DNA from: Burkholderiales bacterium
GTDB taxonomy: Bacteria > Pseudomonadota > Gammaproteobacteria > Burkholderiales > Burkholderiaceae_C
Direction of reading: 5' to 3'
Assembly (NCBI GenBank): GCA_003241965.1
Contig: QBMB01000025.1
Location: 1-49,373 of the forward strand
DNA: 49,373 nt
The position numbers and the translations under genes were made by a program. The notes below the pieces were generated by a model. The model ran no database searches. It was given only the letters and a program-made list of their open reading frames with translations, and had not been told where the DNA came from. Position 1 is the stretch's first letter. Each line of letters starts with the position of its first letter. Positions 8,766 through 45,234 of the stretch are shown here, piece by piece.

Positions 8766-8806
8766 ACCAGCCACCACGAGGCAGCTGGTACCTCGCGGGG
8801 TTGATG
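8766..8806 (-). promoter_or_regulatory. recurrent leader RNA, copy A (DndC-like gene)
   Basis: Minus-strand CATCAACCCCG, then stem CGAGG/CCTCG enclosing a loop with ACCAGC, then GCTGGT (8766-8771). The loop and downstream segment are perfectly complementary over six bases, giving a pseudoknot or an alternative hairpin. It lies 24 nt upstream of the start codon. Confidence 0.6.
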
Positions 8807-8877
8807 TGCCCCGGACGTGCCGGGGTGTTTGGTGTGGGCGGTGATGCCCGTTGAATGCTGTCCGGCCCGAGGGCACA

Positions 8878-8904
8878 GATGCGATGTCGTCAAAGACGAA
8901 TACA
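8878..8904 (-). promoter_or_regulatory. accessory hairpin of leader copy A
   Basis: Minus-strand TCGTC-TTT-GACGA between the upstream box and the start-proximal hairpin. Equivalent short hairpins with U-rich loops stand at the same place in the leaders near 15836, 40941 and 45266, with compensating stem changes. Confidence 0.4.
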
Positions 8905-8935
8905 GGGCGGATTTTCAGTTGGGGGCACCTGGTGC

Positions 8936-8952
8936 GCAAGCGATGGCGACCA
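8936..8952 (-). promoter_or_regulatory. conserved upstream box, copy A
   Basis: Minus-strand TGGTCGCCATCGCTTGC, 194 nt before the start codon at 8742. Shared with the leaders of at least six other genes in the window. It could be promoter, operator or the 5' end of the leader RNA. Confidence 0.6.
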
Positions 8953-9103
8953 GTCCGCCACTGCCGGGTTCGCGGGCGGCCAGAACTGCTGCCGTGCCCT
9001 CCCGGTTCCCCTGTCTTCGAGGGGTGTTCCCCGTGTTGGATGACCCGTGGGAGCGTGTTGCCTGCCTATTCTTGAATCAGCCGGCCATTTGAGCCGATGG
9101 CAT

Positions 9104-9123
9104 CCAAGCGATGCGAGACCAAT
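9104..9123 (-). promoter_or_regulatory. second, orphan copy of the upstream box
   Basis: Minus-strand TTGGTCTCGCATCGCTTGG, a one-base-insertion variant of the box. No minus-strand gene lies between it and copy A. The 150 bp between them contain a G/C hairpin (CGGGGAACACCCC) like the leader hairpins, so this may be a leader left after loss of its gene, or a tandem promoter. Confidence 0.35.
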
Positions 9124-9167
9124 TTGTGCGCGGCCCGGCCGTGCTGCCCTTGACTACGGAGTGTTCC

Positions 9168-9752
9168 ATGCAAGTATTGATTGAAGCCCCACCGCATCAA
9201 CCCCAAACACCCATGAAAAACTTCCTTCTGTTCTCCGCCCTCCGCATGCTCGGCGTGCCGCGCTGGATGACCCGCCTGGTCATGCTGGTCGTGCTGGCCA
9301 CCTCTTTCTCCCACCTCTGGGCAGGCACCCTGACCGGTCGGGTGGTCGGCGTCTCCGATGGGGACACCATCACCGTTCTGGATGCCTCGCGCCAGCAGCA
9401 CAAGGTGCGCCTGCAGGGCATCGACGCGCCGGAGTCCCGGCAGGCCTTCGGCAATGTGTCCAAACGCGGGTTGTCTGACCTTGTTGCTGGTCGGCAAGTG
9501 GAAGTTCGCTTCGATAAAGAGGACCGCTACGGGCGCCTGCTCGGCGTGGTCTACGAGGGCGGCCAGGACGTGAACCTTGCGATGGTCAGCCGCGGGCTGG
9601 CGTGGCACTACACGTTCTACCAACGGGATCAGTCGATCCTTGACCGGCAGCGGTACGCCCTTGCCCAGCAACAAGCCCGCCAAGCCGGCATCGGTCTGTG
9701 GCGCGACGCTCAGCCCACCCCGCCGTGGGACTTCCGCCGCCAAGGCGATTGA
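9168..9752 (+). CDS. secreted thermonuclease-family (SNase) nuclease
   Basis: About 195 residues. A hydrophobic export segment (RLVMLVVLATSFSHLWAG) precedes a staphylococcal-nuclease fold with VVGVSDGDTITVL, VRLQGIDAPES (catalytic Arg/Glu) and DRYGRLLG (second catalytic Arg). It should degrade DNA or RNA in the periplasm or outside, with calcium. ATG at 9168 has GGAG six bases upstream; ATG at 9213 (MKNFLLFSALR) gives a tidier signal peptide but no ribosome-binding site. It heads a plus-strand cluster running to 12221. Small SNase genes are frequent on conjugative plasmids. Confidence 0.85.
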   Translation: MQVLIEAPPHQPQTPMKNFLLFSALRMLGVPRWMTRLVMLVVLATSFSHLWAGTLTGRVVGVSDGDTITVLDASRQQHKVRLQGIDAPESRQAFGNVSKRGLSDLVAGRQVEVRFDKEDRYGRLLGVVYEGGQDVNLAMVSRGLAWHYTFYQRDQSILDRQRYALAQQQARQAGIGLWRDAQPTPPWDFRRQGD

Positions 9753-9765
9753 GCGGAGGACCACG

Positions 9766-10437: not shown

Positions 10438-10445
10438 TTGCCAAC

Positions 10446-11533: not shown

Positions 11534-11534
11534 G

Positions 11535-14154: not shown

Positions 14155-15735
14155 TCAGAGGAATGCCGCCTGCAGCTCCTCCATGACATCGGTCGCGCTG
14201 GTGCAACCGGTGTCGGTGTTGTCGTCGCAGCTGGCTTCGTGATCGCCCACGACCGGCGCCTGCAGCACCAGCATCACGGTGGGGACATCGGTGCCGGCGG
14301 CCTTGAAGGCTCCGCGCTCGATCTCGATCACGTCGATGGCGTGCTCGCTGACCCAGTCACGGAACGCCCTGCTCTTGGCATTGTTGGCCGTGCGCCAGGT
14401 GGTCGATGTGATCGCTCCCAACCGGCCACCCGGGACGAGGAACTTCATCGCATGCTCGACGTGGGTGATGTCCTTGCCACCGGAAAATGGCGGGTTCATG
14501 CAGATGACCTGGTAGCGCGGCTCGGGTGTGACCTGAAGGAAGTCGACCGCCCCATCCAGTTCAAAGCCCAGTTCGCGCAGCCGCTCCACGTTGCGAGGCA
14601 TCAGCTCGTAGCACGTCACGTTGTCCTTGCCCACCACCTCGGCCGCAGCCAGGGCGATGGCGCCGGATCCCGCCTGCGGCTCCAGCACCGTCATTCCGGC
14701 CTCGAGGCCGGTCTGCAGGAGCAGGCGCTGCACCAGTTCGGGCGGCGTCGGGAAGAACTCGTAGTCCTTGCTCGTGAGCAGCTCCCCCGTGGTGATCACC
14801 TGCGCCAGCGCATCGCGAGGACAGCTGGCGAAGACGTGCGCTTGCTTGGGCGTCGACCACTGGCCGCCGAGTTCACAAAGCACATCCGCCGTTTTCTTGT
14901 ACCAGGCGGGCGTCAGGCGTTCCACGATGCGCACCTCATTGCCCGTCACCGAAGCGCCTTGCAGCACCGCGATGATTTTCGGGTCGATTCGGGTCGCGCG
15001 CGGCAGCATGGAGGCTCCCACCGCCACGCCGAGCACCTTACGGCTTGCCGACTTAGCAACTGCCAGCGGAGCGGTCAGGGGTTGTGCCACGTTCCAGTTC
15101 AACTGGACCACGGCCAACTCGCTGGGGTAGTCACGGCCCTGCACCTCGAGCGTCATCGCTGAGCCCCGGGGCTCGCCGTTGAGCGCGACGTTTCCGATTG
15201 CGTCACCGAGCCACTCGGGGTCGTTCACCAGCTGCTCCAAGGCTTCGATGCGGGCCTTCTGGGAGGACTTCAGCCGCATCTCGAACTGCGCCATGCGCAG
15301 CGTGTGCCATTCGGCACCGAGCGCGATCAGCTTTTCAGCAGTTGCGATGCGCTCCTCTGCAGGCAGAGCCCTGAGGTTGCGCAGCAGCACCCACGCGTTG
15401 TCCAGGCTCAGCACCCGGTCATACAGCGTTTCCGCATCCAGACGGTAGACCGCCTTGTTGACCCCCAGCGCCTGCAGCATGAGCGACAGGGCGGCTTGGG
15501 GTTGTTCGATGAGCAAGTTCTGAATGTCGAGCTCGATGTCGTCGCCGACCATGCGAGCTGTCAGCAGCAGATTGCATGCTTCGTCGTGGAGGAGCCGCGC
15601 GCCATCGGGGCGCTCCTCAGCGGCGATGCCGTCCTCGGATTCCTGCATGGGCACCTCCCAAGGGAAGATGGACCGCATGACCAGGATGGCCGAGATCTGC
15701 TCAAGGCTGGCCAAGAGCGAGAGATGTTGTTTCAT
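14155..15735 (-). CDS. N6-adenine DNA methyltransferase (NPPF)
   Basis: 526 residues. SAM motif VLEPQAGSGAIA near 348-359 and catalytic NPPF near 414-417, introduced by FFPTPPELVQRLLLQ, as in gamma-type adenine methylases of plasmids and phages. The N-terminal 320 residues are a helical region of unknown role. No endonuclease gene is adjacent, so it is an orphan enzyme, plausibly protecting the element from host restriction. ATG at 15735 is preferred because the leader hairpin ends directly before it and AAAGGG lies about 10 bases upstream. It is under a clear copy of the recurrent leader and ends at a strong terminator. Confidence 0.85.
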   Translation of the reverse strand: MKQHLSLLASLEQISAILVMRSIFPWEVPMQESEDGIAAEERPDGARLLHDEACNLLLTARMVGDDIELDIQNLLIEQPQAALSLMLQALGVNKAVYRLDAETLYDRVLSLDNAWVLLRNLRALPAEERIATAEKLIALGAEWHTLRMAQFEMRLKSSQKARIEALEQLVNDPEWLGDAIGNVALNGEPRGSAMTLEVQGRDYPSELAVVQLNWNVAQPLTAPLAVAKSASRKVLGVAVGASMLPRATRIDPKIIAVLQGASVTGNEVRIVERLTPAWYKKTADVLCELGGQWSTPKQAHVFASCPRDALAQVITTGELLTSKDYEFFPTPPELVQRLLLQTGLEAGMTVLEPQAGSGAIALAAAEVVGKDNVTCYELMPRNVERLRELGFELDGAVDFLQVTPEPRYQVICMNPPFSGGKDITHVEHAMKFLVPGGRLGAITSTTWRTANNAKSRAFRDWVSEHAIDVIEIERGAFKAAGTDVPTVMLVLQAPVVGDHEASCDDNTDTGCTSATDVMEELQAAFL

Positions 15736-15883: not shown

Positions 15884-15900
15884 GCAAGCGATGCGGGCCA
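15884..15900 (-). promoter_or_regulatory. conserved upstream box, copy G
   Basis: Minus-strand TGGCCCGCATCGCTTGC, 149 nt before the methyltransferase start. It abuts the ATG of the plus-strand gene at 15901. Confidence 0.6.
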
Positions 15901-23214: not shown

Positions 23215-25251
23215 TCAGTCGGCCTTGGCCTTCACGAGCGTCGCGTTGCGGTAGAACGAACCGTCCAGTTCGCCTCCGACCAGCTCGCCGGGGCGAACTG
23301 CGTTCCACAGGGCTTCCCCCAGCTGCTCGGCACTCACGGCCACGCCGCTGATGCTTTGCAACTGAGCGCAGATGCGCGAGAGCATGTCGTCGTTGACTTC
23401 CAGGCTCTCTGTGCGCGCAACGGCGTACTGCAGCGGGTCGCCGGCACCGGCCGCGCCGTGCTTGTGCAGACGGACCAGCGCGAGCTGCCCCAGGTTGTTG
23501 TCGCTGAACTGGGGGTATTCCCGGCTCAGGATGCGTTCCACCGTATAGCTGAGGTGGTGGTCGCGCAGCACGGCGAGCTTGTTGTCCCAGTCGTTCTTCG
23601 CGTCCGATTCCCACTCCTCGACGAACCGGTCGCTGTCGTCGGTGAAGGTGGCCAGCACGTTGACCGGATGGTCGCCCCAACTGGTGTCGCCGCCGAGAAT
23701 CCAGCAGATGTAGTCCTGTTCTTCATAGCCGAAGAACTCCTTGACCACCTCTCCAGGCTCCTCGACAGGCACCATCAGCCAGTCCGCTTCGATCCGGTGT
23801 TCCATGCGGAAATCCGGGTCCACGGTTGAGGTCACGATCACCGTGGCGGCTTTCGCCTCGCGGATGGTCGCGTTGCTGGAGTTCCAGCAGAAGTCCACTT
23901 CCTGCTTTCCAGCTTCCTCGATCTCCACTTGGAAGACCAGGTCGGCGTAGCTGGGGCAGACGGTGTTGAGCCAGTGGCCTTCAGGCATCTGGAGCATGTT
24001 GGCGTCCTTGATACGACCTTCCAGCATGACCTTCAGAGCCACGGCCGCCCAAGGGTCCTCAGTTGTGCAGCTCGGGGCGTCGCGCCAGATGCAGATCTGA
24101 CCAGCCTTGATTTCCTCGAAGCTGATGAGCTTTTCCTGGCCGAGCACGTGGTCGTGACAAACCACCAGCACGTCCTGGTAGTCGGTTGATCGCGCCACCG
24201 AAGTCACTTCGGACAACATCCGTTGGGGGATGAAGGGCACATCGTTGAACAGCTGACGCATGTTGAAGGTGCGAGCCAAGTCCCAGCAGTCGCGGACGAA
24301 CTCGTCCGGCGGGAGGCTGGCCTTCATCTGCACCAGCCGGTTGCGCACCAACTCGATCAGCGCTTGCTGGATCACCGCGACTTGCTTCTCCGAATCGAAG
24401 AGGTGCGTGCGGTCAGGCATCTGTGCGATGAACAACGACGAGTCCAGGTGGACCACGTAGTCGTTATCGATCCCACGGTAGCGATCGCGCTCTTCGATGG
24501 GCAGACCTTGCAGGTACAGGCGCATGTTGGACTGTGTGGGCTGCTGCAGGCTGTTCTGGAAGCCATCAGCAATGAGCTTGCCTCGCACGGCAACGAAGCC
24601 CACCGAGGTGTGCACCCCGATGTCCTTGAGTGCTTCCTGAGAGCACTCGCGGGGAAGGTCCACGCCGTTGAAGCTGATCGGCAATGGGAAGCCCTTCACC
24701 AGATCACTGAGCTTCTGGCGGAACACCTCGACGGCGGGCCGCGTGTGCTCCACTTTTTGCAGCAAGTCGCCAATGACGCCGTGCAGTTCGATGCGGGTGA
24801 CCCACTCGCCCATGGTGGCTTGTTCGTCACTGGTCATCGGGTGGACCTGCAGCGTGCGCTGCTCGACCACGTCTTCTTGTGAGATCTCCAGGCGCTTGCC
24901 TTTGGACATCACGACAACGCGCTCGGCCGCGTAGCACGAGCTGAAGAAGCCCATGCCGAAGGGACGCTCGCTCAGCTGGGTTTCGGTGCTCTCCCAGCCA
25001 CTGGTGGCCAGGTCGAGCAGAACGTCGAACTTGTCGATTCCCATGCCGTTGTCACTGATCGTGATCACGCGGGTGCCGCCGTCGCAGGTGATGGCGATCT
25101 GGGTCGCCTGCGCGCGCCTGGCGTTCTGCACCATCTCCCCCATGACGGAGAAGCTGGAGGAGAACAGGTGCCGCATGGACTTGAAGAACGCGCGCTCGTT
25201 GACGTTGGCCCGCACGGTGGTCGCAGGCAGGTTGGTTTGGGTGGTTTCCAT
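23215..25251 (-). CDS. GHKL (Hsp90/MutL-type) ATPase
   Basis: 678 residues. The N-terminal Bergerat fold shows the N-box GEMVQNARRA (E39, N43), DNGMGID (D67, G69, G71) and ERPFGMGFFSS lid (G99, G101), so ATP binding and hydrolysis are expected. The remaining 500 residues, LVRNRL..SLPPDEFVRDCWDLARTFNM onwards, fit no domain I know. Stand-alone GHKL ATPases of this kind occur on plasmids and in some phage-defence operons, usually with a partner; none is adjacent here. The start is the ATG after AAGGAC, a ribosome-binding site that can be masked by GUCCUU in the leader. Single-gene unit with its own leader and terminator. Confidence 0.85.
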   Translation of the reverse strand: METTQTNLPATTVRANVNERAFFKSMRHLFSSSFSVMGEMVQNARRAQATQIAITCDGGTRVITISDNGMGIDKFDVLLDLATSGWESTETQLSERPFGMGFFSSCYAAERVVVMSKGKRLEISQEDVVEQRTLQVHPMTSDEQATMGEWVTRIELHGVIGDLLQKVEHTRPAVEVFRQKLSDLVKGFPLPISFNGVDLPRECSQEALKDIGVHTSVGFVAVRGKLIADGFQNSLQQPTQSNMRLYLQGLPIEERDRYRGIDNDYVVHLDSSLFIAQMPDRTHLFDSEKQVAVIQQALIELVRNRLVQMKASLPPDEFVRDCWDLARTFNMRQLFNDVPFIPQRMLSEVTSVARSTDYQDVLVVCHDHVLGQEKLISFEEIKAGQICIWRDAPSCTTEDPWAAVALKVMLEGRIKDANMLQMPEGHWLNTVCPSYADLVFQVEIEEAGKQEVDFCWNSSNATIREAKAATVIVTSTVDPDFRMEHRIEADWLMVPVEEPGEVVKEFFGYEEQDYICWILGGDTSWGDHPVNVLATFTDDSDRFVEEWESDAKNDWDNKLAVLRDHHLSYTVERILSREYPQFSDNNLGQLALVRLHKHGAAGAGDPLQYAVARTESLEVNDDMLSRICAQLQSISGVAVSAEQLGEALWNAVRPGELVGGELDGSFYRNATLVKAKAD

Positions 25252-25255
25252 GTGT

Positions 25256-25330
25256 GTCCTTGATGGGTTGAAGGACCGGAGAACCACCGCCCTGACCGGG
25301 AGTGGTTCCCGGTCGGGTGGGTTGCTCCAG
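25256..25330 (-). promoter_or_regulatory. recurrent leader RNA, copy F (GHKL ATPase)
   Basis: Perfect 8-bp stem GACCGGGA/TCCCGGTC with loop ACCAC (25294-25314), then GTGGT (25283-25287) complementary to the loop. The 5' arm plus loop can instead pair over about 11 bp with the downstream GTGGTTCTCCGG. Between this and the start, GTCCTT (25271-25276) pairs with the ribosome-binding AAGGAC (25256-25261). Confidence 0.7.
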
Positions 25331-25428
25331 GCGGAGCAGAAAGTTGAAGGCGACCAAAAGGCCGCGTGCTGGATGAAATCCAAGACGAGGTCGATGGTAT
25401 GAGGGGGTGACGCACGCCGCAAGCGATG

Positions 25429-25445
25429 CGGACCAATCTAACTTT
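25429..25445 (-). promoter_or_regulatory. conserved upstream box, copy F
   Basis: Minus-strand TGGTCCGCATCGCTTGC, exact consensus, 178 nt before the start at 25251. Confidence 0.65.
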
Positions 25446-30028: not shown

Positions 30029-31647
30029 GACTGGGTGCTCTCAGAGGTTTGGGTGGCCGTGGTGGCTGCGGTGGCAGCGCTGGCGGTGGCGACGTGGGCG
30101 AACAGATCGCCGTATTCCTCGGCACTGCGGATGAGCGCGTGCTGCTGGGTCAGCGTTGAAGGCGACGCCGACGGTGTTGGGGAGGCAGCGTCCAGGGCCG
30201 CCAAGGCCTCGGCCACCAGACGCTCGGTCAGCGCCTTGACGTGGCGGTAGCTGTGCACCCCTTGCTCCATGGCGGCGGCACAGGCCGCGTCGATAAACCG
30301 GTGCGGGTAGCGCCGCGCCAGGTTGACGATGCCCCAGAGCTTGCGCTGGCCCACGCGGCCCTCGATGGCAAACAGCATCTCGCACAGCCGGGCCGCCTGA
30401 GGGCCGATGGCGCGGGCCTGGCTGAGGATGAAGCGGGTCTCGCGCGAGGGGTTGAACACCCGCTCGGCCATGGGCAGCACCACGGTGCCGGGCCGCTCCA
30501 CCCGGGCGTGGGTGCGCAGCAAAGCCTGGGTGCGCAGATCCCGGATCTCGATACGGCGCTCGAAGATCCGCACCAGCACCTTGGAGCCAATGGGTGCGGG
30601 GCGCGCGGCGTAGCTGCTGTGCTCAAAGCGCACGCAGCTGTCATCGCAGACCGTGCGCTGCACCTCGGTGAAGTACGACATGCCAGTGATGGGCAGCGGC
30701 TGCAGGTGCGCGCGCTCCTCCTCGAACATGGCCTGCACCTGACGGCGCTCGGCACCGTGAATGCGCGAGGCCGCCCACTTGACCTCCCAGTGTTCCAGGA
30801 AGGCGTTCTGCTCCTCGATGCTCTCGAAGCGCCGGCCCTTGAGGGCGGTTGCCTGGGTGTGGCCGATGGCGTGCTCCACCGTGCCCTTGCGATTGGGGTC
30901 TCGCACCCGAGCCGGGTCGGCCACCACCTCGTAGTGGGCCAGCATGGCGGCGTAGACCGGGTTGAGGGCAGGCTCGTACAGGTCGGGCTTCAAGACGCCT
31001 TCCTTCAGATTGTCCAGCACCACATACCGGGCAGAGCCACCGAAGTAGCGCCAGGCCTGCTCGTGCAGCTCGGCCCACATCTGCTGGCTGGAGCTCCAGA
31101 CCACGCGGCGGAAGCTGCGCCGCGAGTAACGCAGCGTGGCCACGAACAGGCGGGGTTTGCGCCAGCGCTCGGTGCCGGGCACCCGGGTGGGCGCGCCCTC
31201 GCCGTAGTCGACCTGCATCTCTTCGCCGGGGGCAAACGAAAGGCGGTCGAACTGCTCGGGCTCCTTGTGCCGGAGCTGGGCCACGAAGCGTTTGACGGAG
31301 TTGTAGGCGCCATCGAAGCCGTGCAGGTCCACCAGGTCCTGGTAGATGGCGGTGGCGTTGCGGCCCAGGCGCAACTGCGCGTCGATGAAGCTGCGGTGTG
31401 GCTCGCACTTGGAGATGGCCACCGGCGGAGACACCAGCAGATCAGTCGGTGGCCGGGGTGGAGCAGTTTGACTGGAAGGGTCGGTGGCCACCCCGGGGCA
31501 GTTTGCGGGGTCGGCGGCAAAGCGCTGCTGATACGAACGGATGGTGTGGCGCGAGATGCCAGTGATGCGTTCAATCTCGCGCTGGGTGGCGCCGCCTTTG
31601 AGCAGCGTCCAGATGGTGGTTTGTAGATGTGGCTTCAAGACGTTCAA
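30025..31647 (-). CDS. istA: IS21 transposase IstA
   Basis: About 540 residues. An N-terminal helix-turn-helix (GGATQREIERITGISRHTIRSY) is followed by the integrase core: MQVDYGEG (Asp), YVVLDNLKEGV (Asp) and NRKGTVEHAIGHTQ (Glu), then the IS21 C-terminal region. The TTG at 31647 (NVLKPHLQ next) is chosen because family members begin there and AGGGAG lies upstream; the frame is open to 31704. It appears functional, so the element may still be mobile. Confidence 0.93.
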   Translation of the reverse strand: MNVLKPHLQTTIWTLLKGGATQREIERITGISRHTIRSYQQRFAADPANCPGVATDPSSQTAPPRPPTDLLVSPPVAISKCEPHRSFIDAQLRLGRNATAIYQDLVDLHGFDGAYNSVKRFVAQLRHKEPEQFDRLSFAPGEEMQVDYGEGAPTRVPGTERWRKPRLFVATLRYSRRSFRRVVWSSSQQMWAELHEQAWRYFGGSARYVVLDNLKEGVLKPDLYEPALNPVYAAMLAHYEVVADPARVRDPNRKGTVEHAIGHTQATALKGRRFESIEEQNAFLEHWEVKWAASRIHGAERRQVQAMFEEERAHLQPLPITGMSYFTEVQRTVCDDSCVRFEHSSYAARPAPIGSKVLVRIFERRIEIRDLRTQALLRTHARVERPGTVVLPMAERVFNPSRETRFILSQARAIGPQAARLCEMLFAIEGRVGQRKLWGIVNLARRYPHRFIDAACAAAMEQGVHSYRHVKALTERLVAEALAALDAASPTPSASPSTLTQQHALIRSAEEYGDLFAHVATASAATAATTATQTSESTQS

Positions 31648-31789
31648 CCTCGGGCTCCCTCGGAATAAGGGAGCAAAAGTAACGTCCTGCCTGTCGGGCC
31701 TCACGGCACCCGACGCAATGGACTCAATGCGTCAGATCACCATGGCCAGGGTGGAGCAGTTTGGGTGGCCATAAGTGGAGCACTTTGAG

Positions 31790-35231: not shown

Positions 35232-36095
35232 TTAGCCCATTAAGCCTTGCTCAAAGTCGACTGGGCTGAGGAAGTCTAGCTTTGAGTGTTTGCGCACCGG
35301 GTTGTAGAAGCGCTCGATGTAATCGAATACGTCGGACCTGGCTTCTTCCCTCGTCCGGTAGACCTTGCGGCTGAGCCTTTCGGTCTTCATGGATGAGAAG
35401 AAGCTCTCCATCGCGGCGTTGTCCCAGCATTCACCACGACGGCTCATGCTGCAGGTGATGCCCTGTGCCTTGAGCAACTGCTGGAAGTCGTCGCTGGTGT
35501 ACTGACTTCCCTGGTCCGAGTGATGCATCAGCGAGCTGGGTTTGCCGCGCCGCCAAAGGGCCATCAACAAAGCGTCGCTCACCATCTTGGCCTGCATGGT
35601 GTCGCTCATCGACCACCCCACGATGCGGCGTGAGTACAGGTCCATCACCGCTGCCGCATACAGCCAGCCCTCAGCCGTCCAGATATAGGTGAAGTCGGCC
35701 ACCCACTTCTGGTTCGGGCCACTGGCCTGGAAGTCGCGCTGCAGATGGTTGGGCGCGATGTGGTTCTCAAGCCTGCTGCCCGTATCGCCAGGTAGCCTGC
35801 GTCGCTTGTGGCGAGCTTGCAGCTTGGCCAGATGCATCAGCCGGATGACCCGGTTCATCCCGCAACTCTCACCCAGCGCTCGAAGGTCGTGCCAGACGCG
35901 TGGACTACCGTAGGTGCGGTCGCTGAGCTCGAAGCTCTCTCGGATGAGGCGGGTGAGCCTGGCGTCGTCCTGGCTGCGTTGGCTCGGCGCTCTGCCCATC
36001 CATTCGTAGAAGCCGCTGTGGGAGACCGCCAGAACCCGGCACATGGTGCGGGTGGGCCAGACACTACGATGCCGCGCAATGAAGCCGTACTTCAC
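35232..36095 (-). CDS. IS3-family transposase OrfB (integrase domain)
   Basis: 287 residues: HTH_21-like segment, then the rve integrase core with KWVADFTYIWT (Asp), HHSDQGSQYTS (Asp) and ECWDNAAMESFFSSMKTE (Glu). GTG start overlaps the orfA stop. It is normally made as an OrfAB fusion by -1 frameshift at the A-run about 30 bases upstream. Confidence 0.95.
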   Translation of the reverse strand: MKYGFIARHRSVWPTRTMCRVLAVSHSGFYEWMGRAPSQRSQDDARLTRLIRESFELSDRTYGSPRVWHDLRALGESCGMNRVIRLMHLAKLQARHKRRRLPGDTGSRLENHIAPNHLQRDFQASGPNQKWVADFTYIWTAEGWLYAAAVMDLYSRRIVGWSMSDTMQAKMVSDALLMALWRRGKPSSLMHHSDQGSQYTSDDFQQLLKAQGITCSMSRRGECWDNAAMESFFSSMKTERLSRKVYRTREEARSDVFDYIERFYNPVRKHSKLDFLSPVDFEQGLMG

Positions 36096-36388
36096 TGCGG
36101 GTCCTTGGCAAAGTAGCCGAGCGCTTTTTTTAGGATGTCGCGCTCCGTGGTCACACGGCGCAGTTCGCGTTGCAACCGCTCTACCTCCGTTGCAGCCTCA
36201 CTTCGAAGCGGTCGGTTTGGTCTGAGGTCCAACACCCCGCCACGCTCCTGGGTGACCCAACGTCTGAGCACGCTGGTCTGAATACCCAGGTCCCGTGCAA
36301 TGTGCGTCACGGTGGCGCCTGGCTGCTTGCACAGCTTCACTGCTTCACGTTTGAACTCGTCCGTGAAGCTCCTTCTGGTTCTTGTCAT
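36092..36388 (-). CDS. IS3-family OrfA (DNA-binding subunit)
   Basis: 98 residues: helix-turn-helix (FTDEFKREAVKLCKQPGATVTHIARDLGIQTSVLRRWV) and a leucine-zipper-like helix (VERLQRELRRVTTERDILKKAL). Binds the IS ends. The slippery A7 lies at the LKKA codons. Confidence 0.95.
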   Translation of the reverse strand: MTRTRRSFTDEFKREAVKLCKQPGATVTHIARDLGIQTSVLRRWVTQERGGVLDLRPNRPLRSEAATEVERLQRELRRVTTERDILKKALGYFAKDPQ

Positions 36389-36446
36389 GCCTATCTCCTG
36401 AACACATCATGTCATTGGATGTGTCCGGGAAACTGGGGGAAGCCCA

Positions 36447-36850
36447 AGCAGTGCGTATGCCCCGTAGGTGAGCATCCAGCTCTGCAGCAAGTGCGAGCGG
36501 TCCGCCTCGGGCGCTTTCGCGTCCAGTGCAGGGAGTTCACCGGCCTTGGCCGCGTCGAGCATCTGCTGCGTGATGTCGCCCAGCTGGCTGACACCGAAGT
36601 AGGCCAGCAGCGCATCGACAACACGGACCTCGAAGGGACCGTAGTGGCCCCAGGCGACCGCATCGACGAATTCGTCGCTGCTGCCGTCGCGGTCCTTGAC
36701 CGAGTGCAGTTCTTTCAGCGTGAGGCTCAGCAAGTGGTCGGTGGCGTCCACCTGTTCTGGCGGGCTGAACGACATGGCTGTGTTACCGATCCACTCCTGC
36801 ACGACGAAGGTGACGAGCAGGCGGCGGATGGTGTTGGAATGGGTTTTCAT
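36447..36850 (-). pseudogene. 5' part of a gene split by the IS3 element
   Basis: About 135 residues remain, from MKTHSNTIRRLLVTFVVQEWIGN to GAYALL. With the 35005-35200 fragment the product is about 200 residues, small, soluble and unrecognised. It ends an operon with the genes at 36900 and 37333. The original terminator (34953-34984) now lies on the far side of the insertion. Confidence 0.8.
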
Positions 36851-37653: not shown

Positions 37654-37705
37654 GGGGAAGTCCTTTGAAACGTCCTCTTTGGAGGCGAAGGGATCCACAG
37701 ATGCA

Positions 37706-37726
37706 CTTCTCCCCGACCGGGGGAAG
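37706..37726 (-). promoter_or_regulatory. divergent leader hairpin, copy H
   Basis: Minus-strand CTTCCCCC-GGTC-GGGGAGAAG hairpin about 55 nt before the start codon. It lacks the C/A-rich loop of the other copies but stands between the upstream box and the start as they do. Confidence 0.35.
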
Positions 37727-37845
37727 TCCACCTGCGGAGGGAGGGGGAAATACCGGGAGGGGTTCATGGCGCCATCGCTTTCGCGTTGCGCCTACATGGC
37801 CATGGGCCGTGTCGGAATCCATTCTGTGGGTGGTTGCTCAAACGC

Positions 37846-37862
37846 GCCAGCGATGCGGACCA
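37846..37862 (-). promoter_or_regulatory. conserved upstream box, copy H
   Basis: Minus-strand TGGTCCGCATCGCTGGC, one mismatch to consensus, 193 nt before the start at 37653. Confidence 0.55.
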
Positions 37863-37989: not shown

Positions 37990-38562
37990 TCAGTTGGGAT
38001 CGTTGGTGGTGGATCTGTAGAACATCTCCAGCACCTCGTCTCGCAGCTTGTCGAGGTCGTGGCGGTACTCGTCGGTGTCCGGCTGGTAGCCCACCATGTT
38101 TTCGTAGAACTCGTTGAGCCCTCGCCGGCCGCGAATCAGGCGATCGGCCAGCAGATTGCCGTTGATGTCGCGCACCTCGAAGAGCCACGCGTCTTCGCCA
38201 CCGTCCGGGTGGGCGGTGTCCAGCGGTTTCACCCAGAAAGGCTGCGTGGTGCCGCGTGGCCATTCAGTGGGTGCGTCGATCTGGCGTTTGGAATCCACGA
38301 GGTAGGCGCGCAGCCTGCCTTGCTCATCCAGTGCCGCGCGCAAGGTGTTGCGATCGGCTGGGTCTTTGAGCACCTGGATTTTGGCGCTCTCCAGCGTCCA
38401 GAGGTCGGTGGAGTCTTCGAACTCGCCGCTGGGCACCTGCTCCAGGCGAAGGCGGGCGTAGGCCTGCAGATCGTCCTGGGTGGCGCTCATCGGCACGGAG
38501 ACGATTTCGGTGTATTCACGGATCACGTTGGCGCGCAGCGTGATGCGAACAGTCTTGTTCAT
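37990..38562 (-). CDS. hypothetical protein, 190 residues
   Basis: Soluble acidic protein (MNKTVRITLRANVIREYTEIVSVPMSATQDDLQAYA..., ending MFYRSTTNDPN). The N terminus looks like a small beta-rich domain; family unknown. ATG at 38562 after AAGGA. Second gene of a unit with the methylase relative at 38646, separated by leader-like hairpin J, so it may be controlled on its own. Confidence 0.7.
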   Translation of the reverse strand: MNKTVRITLRANVIREYTEIVSVPMSATQDDLQAYARLRLEQVPSGEFEDSTDLWTLESAKIQVLKDPADRNTLRAALDEQGRLRAYLVDSKRQIDAPTEWPRGTTQPFWVKPLDTAHPDGGEDAWLFEVRDINGNLLADRLIRGRRGLNEFYENMVGYQPDTDEYRHDLDKLRDEVLEMFYRSTTNDPN

Positions 38563-38580
38563 GTGGAAATCCTTGTGGGT

Positions 38581-38619
38581 GTGGGGCCGCCCCACCGGGG
38601 CGTGTGGCCCCGATGGGTG
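38581..38619 (-). promoter_or_regulatory. intercistronic copy J of the leader hairpin
   Basis: Minus-strand CACCCAT, perfect stem CGGGGC/GCCCCG with loop CACAC (38596-38612), then GGTGGGGCGG-CCCCAC. GTG right after the stem can pair with the loop, and GGGGCC can pair with the later GGCCCC. It sits between two genes of one transcript with no upstream box, so its role is likely post-transcriptional. Confidence 0.55.
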
Positions 38620-38645
38620 AACGAGAGATGAGAGACCGGTGTGCG

Positions 38646-39575
38646 TCAGGCCAGAGCCCAGACGCCGCGGTCTTCGTTGCGGAAGGTGTCTTCGTGCGTT
38701 TGCAGCACTTGGCGCACCTTCTCTTTCCAGAAGTTGTTGGTGGCCAACCGCTCCGGCGCTGCTGCCGCGATGGCGGCGTACAGCTTGTCCAGCGGTGCTT
38801 TTCCGCCAAGCCCCTGCAGGACACATCGAACGATGTTCTTCCAGGTGCCGGTGACGCGCTGGGTCTGTTCCTTGACCATGCCCGAGAGCAGAACCACGGC
38901 TGAGACGCCGCGCTTCTCCCAGAGGATTAGGTACTCGTGAACCAATTTCGGCAGCTTCATCCGACCGTACGTTTTGAGGTCCGATAGGCAGTTGTGCTGC
39001 ATCTTGATGATCACGGCGGCCAGCTCGTTGGACGGCATGCGCGCGATCATCTCGGCCTGATAGGACGTGTAGGTTGAGCCCCTGCGCCAGTCACCGATGA
39101 GCGTGCCGTAGTAGCCACCTGGACGCGTTGCGCGTCTTTGGTTGAGCAGTACGGCCTGCATCTTTTCGTGGAACTCAGCGTCATCAGCGCAGTGGCTCAG
39201 ATCACCGGGATGGGGCTTGTCGCCCCACATTCCACCAGGCCCGCTGTACCGGATCATCGAACCGTAGGCCGGATGAGACACGATCAGATCGGCGTGCTTG
39301 CCCACCTTCGTGAGGATGTCCATGGATACGGCGTTGAATCCATCCCGAAGGTCCATGCCATACGCCTCGATGCCCATCTCACGTGCAACTTCAACGCTGG
39401 TGCCAGAGCCGACCATTGGGTCGACAAACACCTTCGGCGAGAGTTGCTCAAAGAGCGTGCGGTAGACATGCCCGGACGCGTTGCCGCGCCACTTGCTGTC
39501 GCCCCAGGGGCCGCGATCAGGAAAGCTGATCACGCTGCTGCCCATTCCTCGGGCGGCGGTTTTCTGTTGAGTCAT
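38646..39575 (-). CDS. HPPY-type DNA methylase relative
   Basis: 310 residues. VFVDPMVGSGTSVEVAREMG is the SAM motif, and DLIVSHPAYGSMIRYSG with WGDKPHPGDLS occupies the place of the (S/N)HPPY catalytic loop in a plasmid/phage DNA methylase family. Here the loop reads SHPAY, so the second proline is lost and activity is uncertain. The C-terminal 60 residues look like a small helical domain. ATG at 39575 with GGAG upstream; ACCACA between them can be masked by the leader. First gene of a two-gene unit. Confidence 0.75.
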   Translation of the reverse strand: MTQQKTAARGMGSSVISFPDRGPWGDSKWRGNASGHVYRTLFEQLSPKVFVDPMVGSGTSVEVAREMGIEAYGMDLRDGFNAVSMDILTKVGKHADLIVSHPAYGSMIRYSGPGGMWGDKPHPGDLSHCADDAEFHEKMQAVLLNQRRATRPGGYYGTLIGDWRRGSTYTSYQAEMIARMPSNELAAVIIKMQHNCLSDLKTYGRMKLPKLVHEYLILWEKRGVSAVVLLSGMVKEQTQRVTGTWKNIVRCVLQGLGGKAPLDKLYAAIAAAAPERLATNNFWKEKVRQVLQTHEDTFRNEDRGVWALA

Positions 39576-39654
39576 GTTGTGGTGCTCCACTTAAAAAAAG
39601 CAGGGACCACAGCACCCAAAGGAGCGAAGTGGCCCCATTGGGTTGATGTTGATG
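39576..39654 (-). promoter_or_regulatory. recurrent leader RNA, copy B (methylase relative)
   Basis: Minus-strand CATCAACATCAACCCAA, P1 CCCAA/TTGGG (39638-39642 with 39615-39619), P2 GGGGC/GCTCC with loop CACTTC, then TGTGGT (39606-39611). TGTGGTCCC can pair with GGGGCCAC of the hairpin (8 bp, then a T-run), or TGTGGT with ACCACA (39578-39583) beside the start codon. Confidence 0.7.
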
Positions 39655-39743: not shown

Positions 39744-39760
39744 GCAAGCGATGCGGACCA
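39744..39760 (-). promoter_or_regulatory. conserved upstream box, copy B
   Basis: Minus-strand TGGTCCGCATCGCTTGC, exact consensus, 169 nt before the start at 39575. Confidence 0.65.
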
Positions 39761-39840: not shown

Positions 39841-40812
39841 TCACGCAGCCAGTGGCTGTGAAAGGTGTGGGTCATATCGCTTGCCGATGCGCTTGAGCGC
39901 GGCCGACATCCATCGGTCCATTTCGGCACAACGATGCGTCATCGTGTTGGAGATGCCCGAGCGGTGCGCATTCACACGTGCGGAAAAATCCCACGCCATC
40001 GAGTCACAGCTGCCCACCCATGGTTTGTCGCGGACCTTGGTGAGAGCTTCACCCTTGACACCGAACAAGTGCGCCCGGCTGCCGGTGGGGATCAGAGGTT
40101 CCAGCCTATCCAGGATCGCGTAGAGCCCGTGCGTGGGGTGCTTGAGGTCGCGCCGGCACACCGACCCCAGCCCGATCAGCGCTGGAGGAGCAAGCCACGG
40201 CTGCCATCGGCTCCACACCTGCTGCAGCATCTCCAGGCTGCGCTCGTAGTGCGCTGAATCCCATCCCTGAATGACCGGTACCGGGGGCTTGAGCAGGTTG
40301 GCAACAACCGTGCTTGAGCACGTCTTGGCCAACTCGTTCTGCCATTCGTAGAGGATTCGCAGGGTTCCTTCCAGGAAGGTAGCTGTCGCGTTGATGCGGA
40401 AGTCGATCTCTTGAGCACTGCTCACGATTTCTTTCTCCACACACAGGTCCGGCTGCGACCACCAAGAGGCATTGCTCTCGTTGGCGAAGTCCACATACTC
40501 GCTGCAGGTCCATGGAAAGATGCCGGCCATGCCGCGCTGCCGTCCTTTGGTTTTCCAAAGGAGCATCGAGGTGAAGCCGGCGCTGTCCATGGCGAAGTCG
40601 AGCTCGCTCAGGTTGGTGGTCTCAGGAAAGGCAAATGCCGCGCGCTTGGATGACCAGAATGCGTTGGCCGAGACCATCGCAGGGTGCCCCTGGTTGAAGG
40701 CGTGGAAGGCCAGAGCGCCACCCTTGTGGGGGATGCCGACCCTCATGACCAACTCGTCGCCCAAGTGGGCGTTGAGTTGGCCCACGGGCAAGCCGTGCGC
40801 GTTTTCGTTCAT
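39841..40812 (-). CDS. queuine tRNA-ribosyltransferase/DpdA-like protein
   Basis: 323 residues. FAMDSAGF (D76) corresponds to the DSGGF substrate-binding motif of TGT enzymes, EYVDFANE and WWSQPDLC follow in the right order, LIGLGSVCRR (213-221) fits the conserved glycine strand, and VGSCDSMAWD (D270) is at the place of the nucleophilic aspartate. Such TGT-like proteins on phages and islands include DpdA, which inserts 7-deazaguanine bases into DNA. Whether this one acts on DNA or tRNA is open; no preQ0 synthesis genes are visible. Its leader is nearly the same as that of the neighbouring methylase relative. Confidence 0.7.
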   Translation of the reverse strand: MNENAHGLPVGQLNAHLGDELVMRVGIPHKGGALAFHAFNQGHPAMVSANAFWSSKRAAFAFPETTNLSELDFAMDSAGFTSMLLWKTKGRQRGMAGIFPWTCSEYVDFANESNASWWSQPDLCVEKEIVSSAQEIDFRINATATFLEGTLRILYEWQNELAKTCSSTVVANLLKPPVPVIQGWDSAHYERSLEMLQQVWSRWQPWLAPPALIGLGSVCRRDLKHPTHGLYAILDRLEPLIPTGSRAHLFGVKGEALTKVRDKPWVGSCDSMAWDFSARVNAHRSGISNTMTHRCAEMDRWMSAALKRIGKRYDPHLSQPLAA

Positions 40813-40886
40813 GTTGTGGTTCTCCGTATGAAGGAGGGACCACAGCGCCCGTTCGGGATGTGTGATCCCGAAGGGTTGATGTTGAT
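40813..40886 (-). promoter_or_regulatory. recurrent leader RNA, copy C (DpdA-like gene)
   Basis: Perfect stem TTCGGGAT/ATCCCGAA with loop CACAC (40852-40872), flanked by CCC/GGG. TGTGGTCCC downstream pairs with GGGATCACA of the hairpin (9 bp), and TGTGGT (40839-40844) alternatively with ACCACA (40815-40820) next to the start. CTCC/GGAG adds to the second fold and covers the ribosome-binding site. Confidence 0.75.
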
Positions 40887-42262: not shown

Positions 42263-43042
42263 TCAGCCCACCAGTTCCGCTTCGTGCTCTTTGACTGAGC
42301 GAAACGCCTGGTGCACGCGGAAGCCCTGCATGAAGGCAATCCACTGGGCCGCTTTCTCATGGTTGTCGAACGCGGCGACGGACTTGTCTTCGCGCATGAC
42401 GACCACCGGGTACGGCACGTCGCCCTCCTTCACCTCAATGGCGAACTGGGGCAGCACGTAGTTCTTCGCGCGGTAGACCTCCTCGGCGCGCCGCACATCG
42501 ATGATGCGCAGCACGTTGACCGTGTTGATCGAGCCGCCGCAGTTGCTGCTGGTGATGTCTCGCACCTCATCGAGCAAAGGCTCCAGGATCAACGGGACGC
42601 GCATCGGGCCCATCGAGCGCCCAATGAATCCGGTCGTTTCGAACTCTTCAGCCCAGTCCCGGCCAGTCTGCGGATCACCGTAGAACAGCCGCAGGATGGT
42701 GCCCTGCTCACGGTTGTCGCTGTAGCTGCAGCGCGCGGCTTCCAGGATTGCCGCCACCTTCTTCGGCGTGCCCGCGCGGTACCAGGTCTTCTTGGACGCT
42801 GGGTGCGTGGCAAACGCCGCGTGGAGCAGCTTGTTGAGCGTGTAGCACTCACGCTGGCCGAGCATGTCGGGCGTGGGCCCAGCCATGTTCATCACCTGCG
42901 CGAGCTGCTGCGTCTCCTGAAAACAATTGTCAAAGCCGAAGCAACTGACGCCGTAACCGTTGTCGATCACGTACAGGCGCTGTTCTTCGTTCAGGGCGAG
43001 TCCATTGACGAACTCGAGGGGGTATTTCTGCTTGGTACTCAC
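42263..43042 (-). CDS. hypothetical protein, 259 residues
   Basis: Soluble, unrecognised; contains CFGFDNCFQE and a central YGDPQTGRDWAEEFE region. GTG at 43042 (MSTKQKYPLEF) is chosen because GGAGAGA lies five bases upstream; an ATG at 43054 would overlap that site. Under leader copy E. Confidence 0.7.
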   Translation of the reverse strand: MSTKQKYPLEFVNGLALNEEQRLYVIDNGYGVSCFGFDNCFQETQQLAQVMNMAGPTPDMLGQRECYTLNKLLHAAFATHPASKKTWYRAGTPKKVAAILEAARCSYSDNREQGTILRLFYGDPQTGRDWAEEFETTGFIGRSMGPMRVPLILEPLLDEVRDITSSNCGGSINTVNVLRIIDVRRAEEVYRAKNYVLPQFAIEVKEGDVPYPVVVMREDKSVAAFDNHEKAAQWIAFMQGFRVHQAFRSVKEHEAELVG

Positions 43043-43063
43043 TGCTCTCTCCATGGGAGTGTG

Positions 43064-43112
43064 GGAATACCAAGCACCCAACCGGGAACTGGGTGTTCCC
43101 GTGGGGGTTTGA
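43064..43112 (-). promoter_or_regulatory. recurrent leader RNA, copy E
   Basis: Perfect stem CGGGAAC/GTTCCCG with loop ACCCA (43083-43101), then TGGGT (43077-43081) complementary to the loop. The 5' arm and loop GGGAACACC can also pair with GGTATTCCC, one mismatch. Confidence 0.65.
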
Positions 43113-43186
43113 AAGGTCGGCACAGGGCCGACGAGATGGTCATGCGACCAAGACAAGTGCAAATCTAACTTCTGAACGCGGAGCCC

Positions 43187-43203
43187 GCAACCGATGGAGA
43201 CCA
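43187..43203 (-). promoter_or_regulatory. conserved upstream box, copy E
   Basis: Minus-strand TGGTCTCCATCGGTTGC, three mismatches to consensus, about 145 nt before the GTG at 43042. It overlaps the end region of the next gene upstream. Confidence 0.5.
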
Positions 43204-43204
43204 G

Positions 43205-43657
43205 TCAAGGCGCGGGGGCGATGGTGGACGCGCCATGGCCTGACCCCAGTGGGGTGGCTTGTCGGGTGGCGTAGTTGGCTGCTCGCCTGGCTGCAGGGTT
43301 TCCGTCCATGGCGGCCAGCTGGCTCAAGCGGGTGAGGTTGTCACGCGCGGACCCTGAAGCTTGGGCGGCGCGGCGTTGTTCAAACGAACGCACCTCGGCT
43401 TGCACCACCCCTTGGAACGCCTGTCTGCCATTGGCGGTGGCCAGCTGAGCCGTGCACGCCGGCGTGAGCACCAGCACAAGGTCGCCCCCGGCCAGCCTCG
43501 TGCAACCCTCCGTGAAGCTGCTCGATGCTGGTTTGCTCGCACTGGGCTCGGTCGCATGCGCCGCGCCGGCGACCATCGACGCAACGAGGCTGAGCACGGT
43601 TCGTGCCCTTGCTCTAGATCTGGCGACCGGAGGGGTGGTTGTGCGAGGGGGCTTCAT
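43205..43657 (-). CDS. small exported hypothetical protein
   Basis: About 150 residues with a signal peptide (basic RSRARAR, hydrophobic TVLSLVASMVAGAAHA, cut before TEPSAS). The mature part has two cysteines (EGCTRLAGGDLVLVLTPACTAQL) that could form a disulfide. No family. ATG at 43657 chosen for the signal peptide; 43696 is possible. Confidence 0.6.
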   Translation of the reverse strand: MKPPRTTTPPVARSRARARTVLSLVASMVAGAAHATEPSASKPASSSFTEGCTRLAGGDLVLVLTPACTAQLATANGRQAFQGVVQAEVRSFEQRRAAQASGSARDNLTRLSQLAAMDGNPAARRAANYATRQATPLGSGHGASTIAPAP

Positions 43658-43660
43658 TGT

Positions 43661-43700
43661 CCGATGGGGATCGTCCAGCCCGATTCTGGGTTCCATCGGG
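43661..43700 (-). promoter_or_regulatory. mutually exclusive hairpins before the exported-protein gene
   Basis: Minus-strand CCCGATGG (43693-43700) can pair with ATCGGG (43679-43684) or with CCATCGG (43661-43667), the latter touching the start codon. Confidence 0.35.
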
Positions 43701-43757
43701 TGCGCCAGCGGGTGGGTCAACGGCGGGTTCAGCCCCCGTTGTAAGCACCCAAACGAC

Positions 43758-43785
43758 AAAACCCCATGCCGTTGAAGGCATGGGG
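43758..43785 (-). terminator. intrinsic terminator after the gene at 43886
   Basis: Perfect stem CCCCATGCC/GGCATGGGG with loop TTCAAC, followed on the minus strand by TTTTG. Confidence 0.85.
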
Positions 43786-43885
43786 CGGTCGATGTGTGAA
43801 AACCCTCACGGGGCTGCTGCCACCCTCACCCACGAGGGATGAGCGTCGCAGCGGCCGCGTGGGCGTTGCAGACCGAGCTTGGGGC

Positions 43886-45163
43886 TCAGGCCTCTTCGGT
43901 CTGCAGGGAGACCTCGCACTGGGCCAACTGCCCGTCGCTGAATCCCACCACGATCTCGTAGCCCGCCGCGGTGAGCTTGGCGCGCACGACGTGGGGCACG
44001 AAGGCGCGTGGGTTGAGCTTGTCCAGCTCGAACGCGTCTGCGGGCAGTTCCGTCAGGGCGCTCGCGGTCAGTGCGAGCACTGCCGGGTGTTCCAGGCTGA
44101 GAGAGCCAAACAGCGGAGCGGTCCACTGGTTGCCATCCTTGCCACCGCTGTCGAAACGAGCGGTGCGTTGTGCGCCCTGCATGAAGAACAGGGAATCGAA
44201 GTAGGCTGTGGAGCCGTCCTCGCCGTAGCCCATGGCCGAGGGCGAGCGGTTCGTGCCGTGGAACTGCGCCATGTTGGCCAGCTCTTGCTGGAACTGCTCG
44301 GCGTTGTCGCAGATCACGTGGCTCACGTCCTGTTCGGCGTAGGTCAGTGTTTCGCGCAGCACCGGGTTCAGCCAGCAGCCGTAGTACCAGGCATCGCTGC
44401 TCGTGGGGTAGCGGCGCCAGCCAGTGTGTTGCCGAAGGATCGGACTGACCGAGCCGGTGTTGCCGTTCTGGATGAAGCTGCGCCGGATGACCGCGCCGGA
44501 GGAGGTGCGTTCGTCTGGTGCGAAGTTTTCATGGGCGCGCAGCAGGCGGATGGTGTTGCGCACGCGCTCGACCTGGACGTGGTTGAAGGCTTGCTTCTTG
44601 CCACTCCACCAGTACAGGTCACCGATGGCTTGGGAGATGGCCTTGCCGACTTCGGTGACGTTCAGCTTCGAGATGTGCTGCGGCTTGCTGTCGCGCACGA
44701 TCGAATCAGCGTAGTAGCCCGCCAGGGAGCGCGCAACGCCGTCGGTGTTGACCTCGAACGTGTCGCAGAAGATGTGCCCGTGAGGCACCTCATGCAGCAC
44801 GGCGATGACTTCGTCGCGGCCCATGAGCATGTAGCCCGTGGCCGCAGCGAGCAGCATGCGCTGGTGCAGCTGCAGTTCGTCCAGTGGCACAAAGTGCCTG
44901 ACCTCCTGGAAGTACAGGGGCAGCTGGATCAGGCGCTTGACCATCGAGCCGACCTTGCCGGCGTGGTCTGGGTTGCGGAACTGGATCAGCGTGGCCTGTT
45001 CGATGCCGTCGATGCCACCGAAGTCGCGCTCGAAGGCGAACAGGCCGTTGATGTGCTCCAGGAGCTGGCGCGTGTGCGCCGGATCGAACTTGGGATGCTC
45101 GTGCGCCTGGATCATCATCGAGTGGGACTCGACGTAGATGGGCACGTTGTGGATGGGGTTCAT
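43886..45163 (-). CDS. hypothetical protein, 425 residues
   Basis: Large soluble protein, not recognised. Features include HNVPIYVESHSMMIQAHEH near the start, HQRMLLAAATGYMLMGRDEVIAVLHEVPHGHIFCDTFEV (a His-rich stretch) and WWSGKKQAFNHVQVERVRNTIRLL. No classical catalytic motif is evident. ATG at 45163 with AGGA upstream. Single-gene unit with leader copy D and its own terminator. Confidence 0.75.
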   Translation of the reverse strand: MNPIHNVPIYVESHSMMIQAHEHPKFDPAHTRQLLEHINGLFAFERDFGGIDGIEQATLIQFRNPDHAGKVGSMVKRLIQLPLYFQEVRHFVPLDELQLHQRMLLAAATGYMLMGRDEVIAVLHEVPHGHIFCDTFEVNTDGVARSLAGYYADSIVRDSKPQHISKLNVTEVGKAISQAIGDLYWWSGKKQAFNHVQVERVRNTIRLLRAHENFAPDERTSSGAVIRRSFIQNGNTGSVSPILRQHTGWRRYPTSSDAWYYGCWLNPVLRETLTYAEQDVSHVICDNAEQFQQELANMAQFHGTNRSPSAMGYGEDGSTAYFDSLFFMQGAQRTARFDSGGKDGNQWTAPLFGSLSLEHPAVLALTASALTELPADAFELDKLNPRAFVPHVVRAKLTAAGYEIVVGFSDGQLAQCEVSLQTEEA

Positions 45164-45234
45164 GGTTTGTCCTGTGAGGGATGAACCGGAAAACCCATCG
45201 CCCAAACCGGGAGTGGGTCCCGGTGGGGTTGATG
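45164..45234 (-). promoter_or_regulatory. recurrent leader RNA, copy D
   Basis: CATCAACCCC, perfect stem ACCGGGA/TCCCGGT with loop CCCAC (about 45206-45224), flanked by CCC/GGG, then TGGG (45194-45197) complementary to the loop. GGTTT there can also pair with AAACC (45164-45168) just before the start, with TCC/GGA extending it. Confidence 0.7.

Follow-up and report, generated by a model that had tools for sequence, protein, structure and literature searches.

The window, a 49,373-nucleotide stretch of contig QBMB01000025.1 (assembly GCA_003241965.1, Burkholderiales bacterium), contains eight minus-strand genes that carry the same leader directly before the start codon. Each leader is named here by the start position of its gene and is composed of six segments in the order F, a, a3, GGG, b and c. 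F is usually CMACCC in a G-poor flank. Segment a is GGG(G) plus the hairpin loop and resembles the ribosome-binding site, and a3 is CCC(C). The GGG is followed by b, which is the complement of the loop and then CCC, by a G-poor and often U-rich spacer, and by c, which contains the Shine-Dalgarno sequence (SD), loop-like bases and the start codon. We also observed a shared promoter box, TGGTCNNCATCGCTTGC, with 7 matches at ≤1 mismatch in the window, 6 of which lie upstream of the eight leaders.

Table 1. Leaders and promoter boxes in the window.
Coordinates	Strand	Feature	Gene downstream	Remarks
45164..45234	-	leader (F, P1, GGG, b, c)	CDS 43886-45163	no Pfam or NCBIfam match
43043..43113	-	leader	CDS 42263-43042	GTG start; no Pfam or NCBIfam match
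40813..40881	-	leader	CDS 39841-40812	DpdA-like, PF23859 above cut-off
39576..39648	-	leader	CDS 38646-39575	methylase-like in the preliminary description; no Pfam or NCBIfam match; U7 tract shortly after b
38563..38623	-	intercistronic leader	CDS 37990-38562	no Pfam match; weak b:c
25252..25323	-	leader	CDS 23215-25251	GHKL ATPase, PF13589
15736..15802	-	leader	CDS 14155-15735	MTS methyltransferase match just above cut-off; U-run right after b
8743..8806	-	leader	CDS 7012-8742	PAPS reductase domain; DndC-like but below the DndC cut-off; GGT instead of GGG
37654..37729	-	divergent leader, read by eye	ATG at 37653	GGACTTCCCC upstream and again at the start codon, with GGGGAGAAGT between, so the same three-strand logic in a different layout; not found by model R2
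45314..45330	-	promoter box TGGTCNNCATCGCTTGC		exact
43187..43203	-	promoter box		1 mismatch
39744..39760	-	promoter box		exact
37846..37862	-	promoter box		1 mismatch; upstream of the divergent leader
25419..25435	-	promoter box		exact
15884..15900	-	promoter box		1 mismatch
8936..8952	-	promoter box		exact

A preliminary description had proposed that these eight genes are preceded by one structured leader RNA, and we found that all eight copies are present on the minus strand. The covariance model R2 detects 8 of 8 in the window at E 4.9e-10 to 1.6e-4, and the next hit (E 0.063) is the mirror strand of one of them; however, both of our models, R1 and R2, were trained on window copies and this is not an independent test. 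We wrote a descriptor, albeit after seeing the leaders, that required ACCC, a hairpin, GGG, and a b segment complementary to a and to a downstream segment. This gave 7 anchors on the minus strand, namely five of the eight leaders, one of them anchored twice, plus one other site at 33545. It gave 0 on the plus strand, and 40 dinucleotide shuffles gave a mean of 0.3 and a maximum of 2. The preliminary description had given a single design for the copies. However, CATCAACCC is exact in only 4 of 8 (8742, 39575, 40812 and 45163), the 8742 copy has GGT where the others have GGG, and the 38562 copy has no convincing b:c helix in its predicted fold. It also missed the promoter box, that b pairs with the ribosome-binding site and start, and that GGG has two alternative partners.

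We next asked whether paired positions covary. In the 8-row seed alignment 14 cells changed on both sides and 0 of 500 shuffles reached this value, but the count of pairs with such a change (5) was reached by 64 of 500. In 143 distinct hits from other genomes we found 222 such cells against 75.6 in shuffles, while the number of pairs with a change (6) equals the shuffles (367 of 500); that alignment was fitted to the model.

To test the individual helices we compared the duplex energy of each segment with its own partner to that with partners swapped between leaders. Of 101 hits in a first set 21 were not parsed (18 had no strict P1, the a:a3 hairpin, including the window copy before 8742, and 3 had no start). 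A further 4 of 80 were dropped by hand as antisense or doubtful, and the remaining 76 were dereplicated to 38. A second set used the best 150 of 233 hits, of which 23 were not parsed (17 no start, 6 no P1). The 38 and 127 leaders were dereplicated to 99; the copy before 8742 is therefore not in the statistical tests. We found strong own-partner preference for a:a3 (z=-23.0), a:b (z=-20.1), b:c (z=-15.4) and loop:b (z=-6.7), with 0 of 5000 permutations reaching each. The controls a:c (z=-0.2) and a3:b (z=0.3) were null. The 99 targets fall into 62 protein clusters, and with one leader per cluster (N=62) the values for a:a3, a:b and b:c were z=-18.6, -16.8 and -11.2, and loop:b was -5.1. Within 10 loci (47 leaders) z was about -7 for each of the three, with 0 of 2000 permutations. 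The control a3:c was not null (z=-3.9 and -4.0 in the 99- and 62-leader sets, 0 of 5000), which we read as following from a3 resembling b. It should also be noted that the sets were selected by models that demand P1 and CCC/GGG. Interruptions of a:b are G-U 23 against A-C 2, as expected for RNA of the coding strand. In b:c, C-A interruptions (19) outnumber G-U (12), so this helix (P2) is imperfect; we read the C-A interruptions as opposite the A of GGAG.

Covariance models built from the leader give hundreds of further matches, clustered on conjugative plasmids and ICE-like elements of Hydrogenophaga, other Burkholderiales and gammaproteobacteria. In the window's genome all 18 R2 leaders and all 15 matches to the promoter box lie on three of 177 contigs. 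In four named plasmids 35 of 47 model hits end 10-50 nt before an annotated same-strand CDS, among them RecT, SSB, a PD-(D/E)XK nuclease and an ArdC-like protein. These 47 were taken from 52 hits, leaving out 4 in a sequence designated L148 and 1 in another designated L156. These data support an element-wide regulon, as the preliminary description had proposed, and, with the shared promoter box, the leader adds a second, RNA-level layer to it.

Our data suggest that each leader can adopt two mutually exclusive states. State 1 pairs F:GGG, a:a3 and b:c and should hide the start. State 2 pairs a:b with a3:GGG inside it, which takes b away from c and should free F and c. Since loop bases do not pair in P1, loop:b covariation needs the alternative state. 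To determine which state is the predicted default we folded the 99 leaders. The minimum free energy (MFE) fold holds P1 and b:c in 86 of 99, and forcing a:b costs a median of 6.9 kcal/mol; the inner a3:GGG hairpin appears in 97 of 99 forced folds. Holding F unpaired cuts the median gap to 1.1 kcal/mol (mean 3.0), and a:b then appears in the MFE of 47 of 99 against 8 of 99 when F is unblocked, although 52 of 99 still do not show it. The predicted release of the start is only partial: of 17 nt around the SD and start a mean of 10.9 are paired in the MFE and 7.3 when a:b is forced, and in three window copies (25251, 43042 and 15735) the number does not fall.

Taken together, we favor, with moderate confidence and from sequence and folding predictions alone, a cis-acting, bistable translational switch of about 60-80 nt. 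We infer that state 1 is off and state 2 is on, and we propose that something capturing F, a protein or an RNA, tips the balance and so could flip many leaders of one element together, perhaps on entry into a new cell. This suggests how conjugative elements may coordinate genes such as recT, ssb, ardC-like and radC-like genes. The preliminary description had allowed either a pseudoknot or strand exchange. Strand exchange is supported, whereas a pseudoknot is unlikely, since b begins a few nucleotides after an 8-11 bp stem and, judging from known pseudoknot geometry, the linker is too short to cross it.

We looked for other features that might explain the leaders. F showed no partner upstream (own -6.79, reversed F -6.97 and shuffled F -7.25 kcal/mol; own-versus-cross z 0.19). 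A search for a trans RNA with GGGTTGATG gave 24 matches with up to 1 mismatch in the window against 12.9 expected (0 of 100 shuffles reach 24), but 4 of the 6 exact ones are the antisense of the leaders themselves, so we drew nothing from it. Only 3 of 98 leaders have an SD-preceded ATG/GTG ORF from within 80 nt upstream running into the element, and core lengths vary out of frame, which argues against a leader peptide. CsrA control was considered because some a segments hold GGA but was dropped because, by eye, 4 of 8 window copies do not. No viral relatives of the 45163 protein were confirmed.

The best surviving alternative, which we nevertheless consider unlikely, is a transcription attenuator in which the a:b hairpin, capped by a3:GGG and followed by a U-tract, is an intrinsic terminator and P1 is the antiterminator. 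Consistent with this, TTTT lies within 9 nt after a:b in 28 of 99 leaders against 2.5% of upstream 9-mers, and the TTTT start lies at -2..+2 of the end of b in 30 of the 32 leaders that have one in the spacer. The window copy before 15735 shows a 9+5 bp stem and then a U-run. However, 71 of 99 have no such run, 5 of the 7 window copies scored lack one, and the strong covariation of b:c is something that termination alone does not need. The U-rich spacer has few G (71 of 924 bases), which also suits a ribosome standby site.

Less likely still, the element could be the expression platform of a larger sensor RNA, radC RNA in some elements and other upstream domains elsewhere, with a ligand bound upstream setting the state. 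A model hit starts within -35 to +30 nt of the end of radC RNA in 9 of 11 cases, and in 4 of 4 further cases P1 and b are seen by eye, with an obvious c in 3 of them. In contrast, the window copies have no radC match and several copies stand alone between genes soon after a stop codon, as judged by eye. radC RNA was found in 1 of 340 genomes of the class at E≤0.001 against 22 of 369 for the switch at E≤0.005, although the sets, cut-offs and numbers of candidates scored differed, and 3 of 31 sources scanned with Rfam hold radC RNA. Action of the hairpins in single-stranded DNA is very doubtful: the elements are conjugative and targets include ssDNA-processing genes, but the G-U over A-C bias in a:b and the tie of pairing to the SD and start codon on the coding strand in the parsed sets argue against it. 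Static low-expression ribosome-binding-site hairpins with a:b as a by-product are equally improbable, for although state 1 is predicted to be more stable and forcing a:b frees the start only partly, loop:b covariation has no reason in a static fold.

A more speculative reading, possible but unlikely, is that one trans-acting factor grips the constant CMACCC flank and flips dozens of leaders at once, whatever their individual stem and loop sequences, so that a conjugative element turns on its establishment genes together. In this case radC RNA would be one accessory sensor attached to the same switch.

To determine if the leader belongs to a known RNA class we compared the window to Rfam 15. 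The preliminary description had stated that no named class matches, and this holds for the window: there were 0 matches at gathering and four matches up to E 5, none on the leaders and all below their cut-offs. The switch appears to be an unnamed family, and we found no description of it in the literature searched (including PMC2864571 and PMC7266159), which excluded preprints and most subscription papers. The closest known RNA is the orphan radC RNA motif (RF01754; PMC2864571), likewise a leader RNA found on mobile elements before several different genes. In pKLC102, in an Enterobacter ludwigii plasmid and in two further sequences designated L052 and G716, it ends next to this switch, which could offer it an expression platform. 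However, radC RNA is a 149-nt multi-hairpin RNA whose Rfam model stops before P1 or overlaps it by 32-35 nt and does not describe b, c or the swap. It is absent from 28 of 31 sources scanned and from the window, where no match reached the 40-bit threshold or even E≤5.

ICEclc-type elements (BisDC; PMC7423338) also coordinate many units of one mobile element, though probably at the level of transcription. Attenuators with antiterminators also use alternative hairpins, but most of our copies lack the U-tract. Translational riboswitch expression platforms similarly use mutually exclusive helices that hide or free the Shine-Dalgarno sequence. Loop and outer stem sequences differ between copies on the same plasmid, and what is constant, partly by model selection, is CMACCC, GGG and the GGG/CCC core of the inner stem.

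The preliminary description listed eight leaders, and we found that all of them are there, on the minus strand, each directly before a gene start. The core is a flank ending in CCC, then 22 nt in seven copies and 25 in one (43042) holding a hairpin, then GGG (GGT in the 8742 copy). A descriptor written after seeing the leaders gave 7 anchors on the minus strand of the window and 0 on the plus strand, against a shuffle mean of 0.3 and maximum of 2, and five of the eight leaders are among the seven. In the eight-row seed alignment 14 cells changed on both sides and 0 of 500 shuffles reached this count, however the number of pairs with such a change is not unusual (64 of 500).

To determine where the leader occurs we searched other genomes with two covariance models. 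Model R1, built from 8 sequences, found matches at E<=1 in 47 of 60 genomes of the genus, most of them weak, with dense clusters in a smaller number. The genus is inferred to be Hydrogenophaga, since a contig of one of the genomes (G001) has the length of, and matches, the Hydrogenophaga plasmid NZ_CP044976. Model R2, built from 66 sequences, found matches in 40 of 399 genomes of the order at E<=0.02 and in 22 of 369 of the class at E<=0.005, and both lists include G001 and a second genome, G000. In 35 loci taken from such genomes there are 233 matches at E<=0.1, a few of them mirror-strand images. Named carriers are the Hydrogenophaga plasmid, the P. aeruginosa element pKLC102, the Sulfuricystis plasmid pSTJ2, and plasmids of Simplicispira suum and Enterobacter ludwigii. 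In contrast, a Klebsiella stretch with a RecT gene had no hit and a Vibrio plasmid stretch had one weak hit (E 0.04). In pSTJ2, pKLC102, Simplicispira and Enterobacter 35 of 47 hits end 10-50 nt before an annotated CDS on the same strand. The 12 misses include three mirror-strand hits and several whose annotated start lies at another distance.

Positions of the leaders in the window and of other features noted in the window and in loci (L numbers) from other genomes
Feature	Sequence	Position	Strand
Leader	window	before start 8742	-
Leader	window	before start 15735	-
Leader	window	before start 25251	-
Leader	window	before start 38562	-
Leader	window	before start 39575	-
Leader	window	before start 40812	-
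Leader	window	before start 43042	-
Leader	window	before start 45163	-
Promoter box and differently laid out three-strand leader of a gene with an ATG at 37653; the PBL-H3 counterpart (L013, start 5633) has a similar one	window	37654-37862	-
IS21-like genes (IstB and an rve transposase) and an rve/HTH_21 transposase region inside the element	window	29270-31704, 35232-36850	-, -
PAS-domain histidine kinase among minus-strand element genes	window	25812-27908	+
Block of about 20 kb with 17 switch hits, among them before RecT, SSB, ArdC-like and a helicase; for RadC the annotated start overlaps the hit	L147 (pSTJ2)	12275-32500	+ (hits)
radC RNA (RF01754) ending next to the switch	L146; L052; L154	14123-17911; 5096-12823; 2975-6764	
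Copies before a DUF6094 gene	L054, L048	6675-6713, 7334-7372	
Terminator-like hairpin with U-run immediately upstream of a leader	L055; L051	12284-12323; near 2298	

We next asked how the leaders are distributed within the window's own 4.9-Mb genome. All 18 R2 leaders (E<=0.1; 150 of 1869 candidates scored) and all 15 matches to the shared promoter box (<=1 mismatch; control pattern 0) lie on three of 177 contigs, C89, C95 (the window) and C103. The looser R1 search also listed one weak match on a fourth contig, C157 (E 0.019). C89 carries a VirB4-like match (29 bits, above cut-off), however a stronger one lies on another contig, C100. We infer one plasmid or conjugative element of about 0.4 Mb. 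As we read the sequence, the box sits just upstream of, or overlaps, a plausible -35 element. The 99 dereplicated targets of the leaders fall into 62 protein clusters.

Parsing of the 99 leaders showed six segments: F (the flank), a, a3, GGG, b and c (ribosome-binding site and start codon). In state 1 the pairs are F:GGG, a:a3 (the hairpin P1) and b:c, while in state 2 they are a:b with a3:GGG inside it, the latter seen in 97 of 99 folds in which a:b was forced. The GGG thus has two partners, the flank CCC and the CCC of a3. Spacing between the CCC of a3 and the G-run is 3 nt or more in 75 of the 92 leaders with a CCC there, 2 nt in 14 and less in 3, so most but not all could close a hairpin as counted.

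To test these pairings we compared the duplex energy of each segment with its own partner and with the partners of other leaders. We found that a:a3, a:b and b:c are all far better with the own partner (z -23.0, -20.1 and -15.4; 0 of 5000 permutations). The controls a:c and a3:b are null, however a3:c has a weaker signal (z -3.9, 0 of 5000). The result holds with one leader per protein cluster and inside single loci. Pairing of the hairpin loop with b, which P1 cannot explain, is also significant (z -6.7, and -5.1 with one leader per cluster). Interruptions in a:b are G-U rather than A-C (23 to 2), so the coding-strand RNA is the likely molecule. In b:c C-A interruptions are common (19 against 12 G-U), which we read as a compromise with the A of GGAG. 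In the copies before a DUF6094 gene in loci L054 and L048, P1 and a:b exist but b:c seems lacking, and by eye the SD looks free.

Folding predictions were then used to compare the two states. The predicted MFE contains P1 with b:c in 86 of 99 leaders and a:b in 8, and state 2 costs a median 6.9 kcal/mol. Holding F unpaired lowers this to a median of 1.1 (mean 3.0), and a:b then appears in the MFE of 47 of 99. We found that F has no upstream partner and is G-poor. Forcing a:b lowers the paired bases around the SD and start only from 10.9 to 7.3 of 17, so full release is not shown, and the reading that the switch is off by default rests on thermodynamic prediction only. We propose, as inference, that a factor captures F.

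U-runs lie right after b in 28 of 99 leaders (background 2.5%), which makes state 2 look like an intrinsic terminator in a subset, clearly so in the window copy before 15735. Because the b:c constraint is general and the U-tract is not, we prefer translation as the level of control, with dual control possible. Our data indicate a real, widespread leader RNA family with a partner-swapping switch, for which the mechanism class is likely but the signal unknown, and for which we found no description in the literature searched.

Finally we asked how the switch relates to radC RNA (RF01754), an orphan Rfam family. Rfam gave no match in the window, and a relaxed search listed four sub-threshold ones there that do not lie on the leaders, none of them radC. 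In pKLC102, locus L052 and the Enterobacter plasmid, however, a switch hit starts within -35 to +30 nt of the end of 9 of 11 radC RNA matches. Of the two exceptions one looks like a divergent copy and one shows none. In a further genome, G716, P1 and b are seen by eye after 4 of 4, with an obvious c in 3. This suggests that the switch may be the expression platform of radC RNA. Weinberg et al. 2010 (PMC2864571) list radC as certainly RNA, probably cis-regulatory and ambiguous as a riboswitch. In two cases the Rfam hit overlaps P1 by 32-35 nt, so the 3' end of the radC model may partly be this switch.
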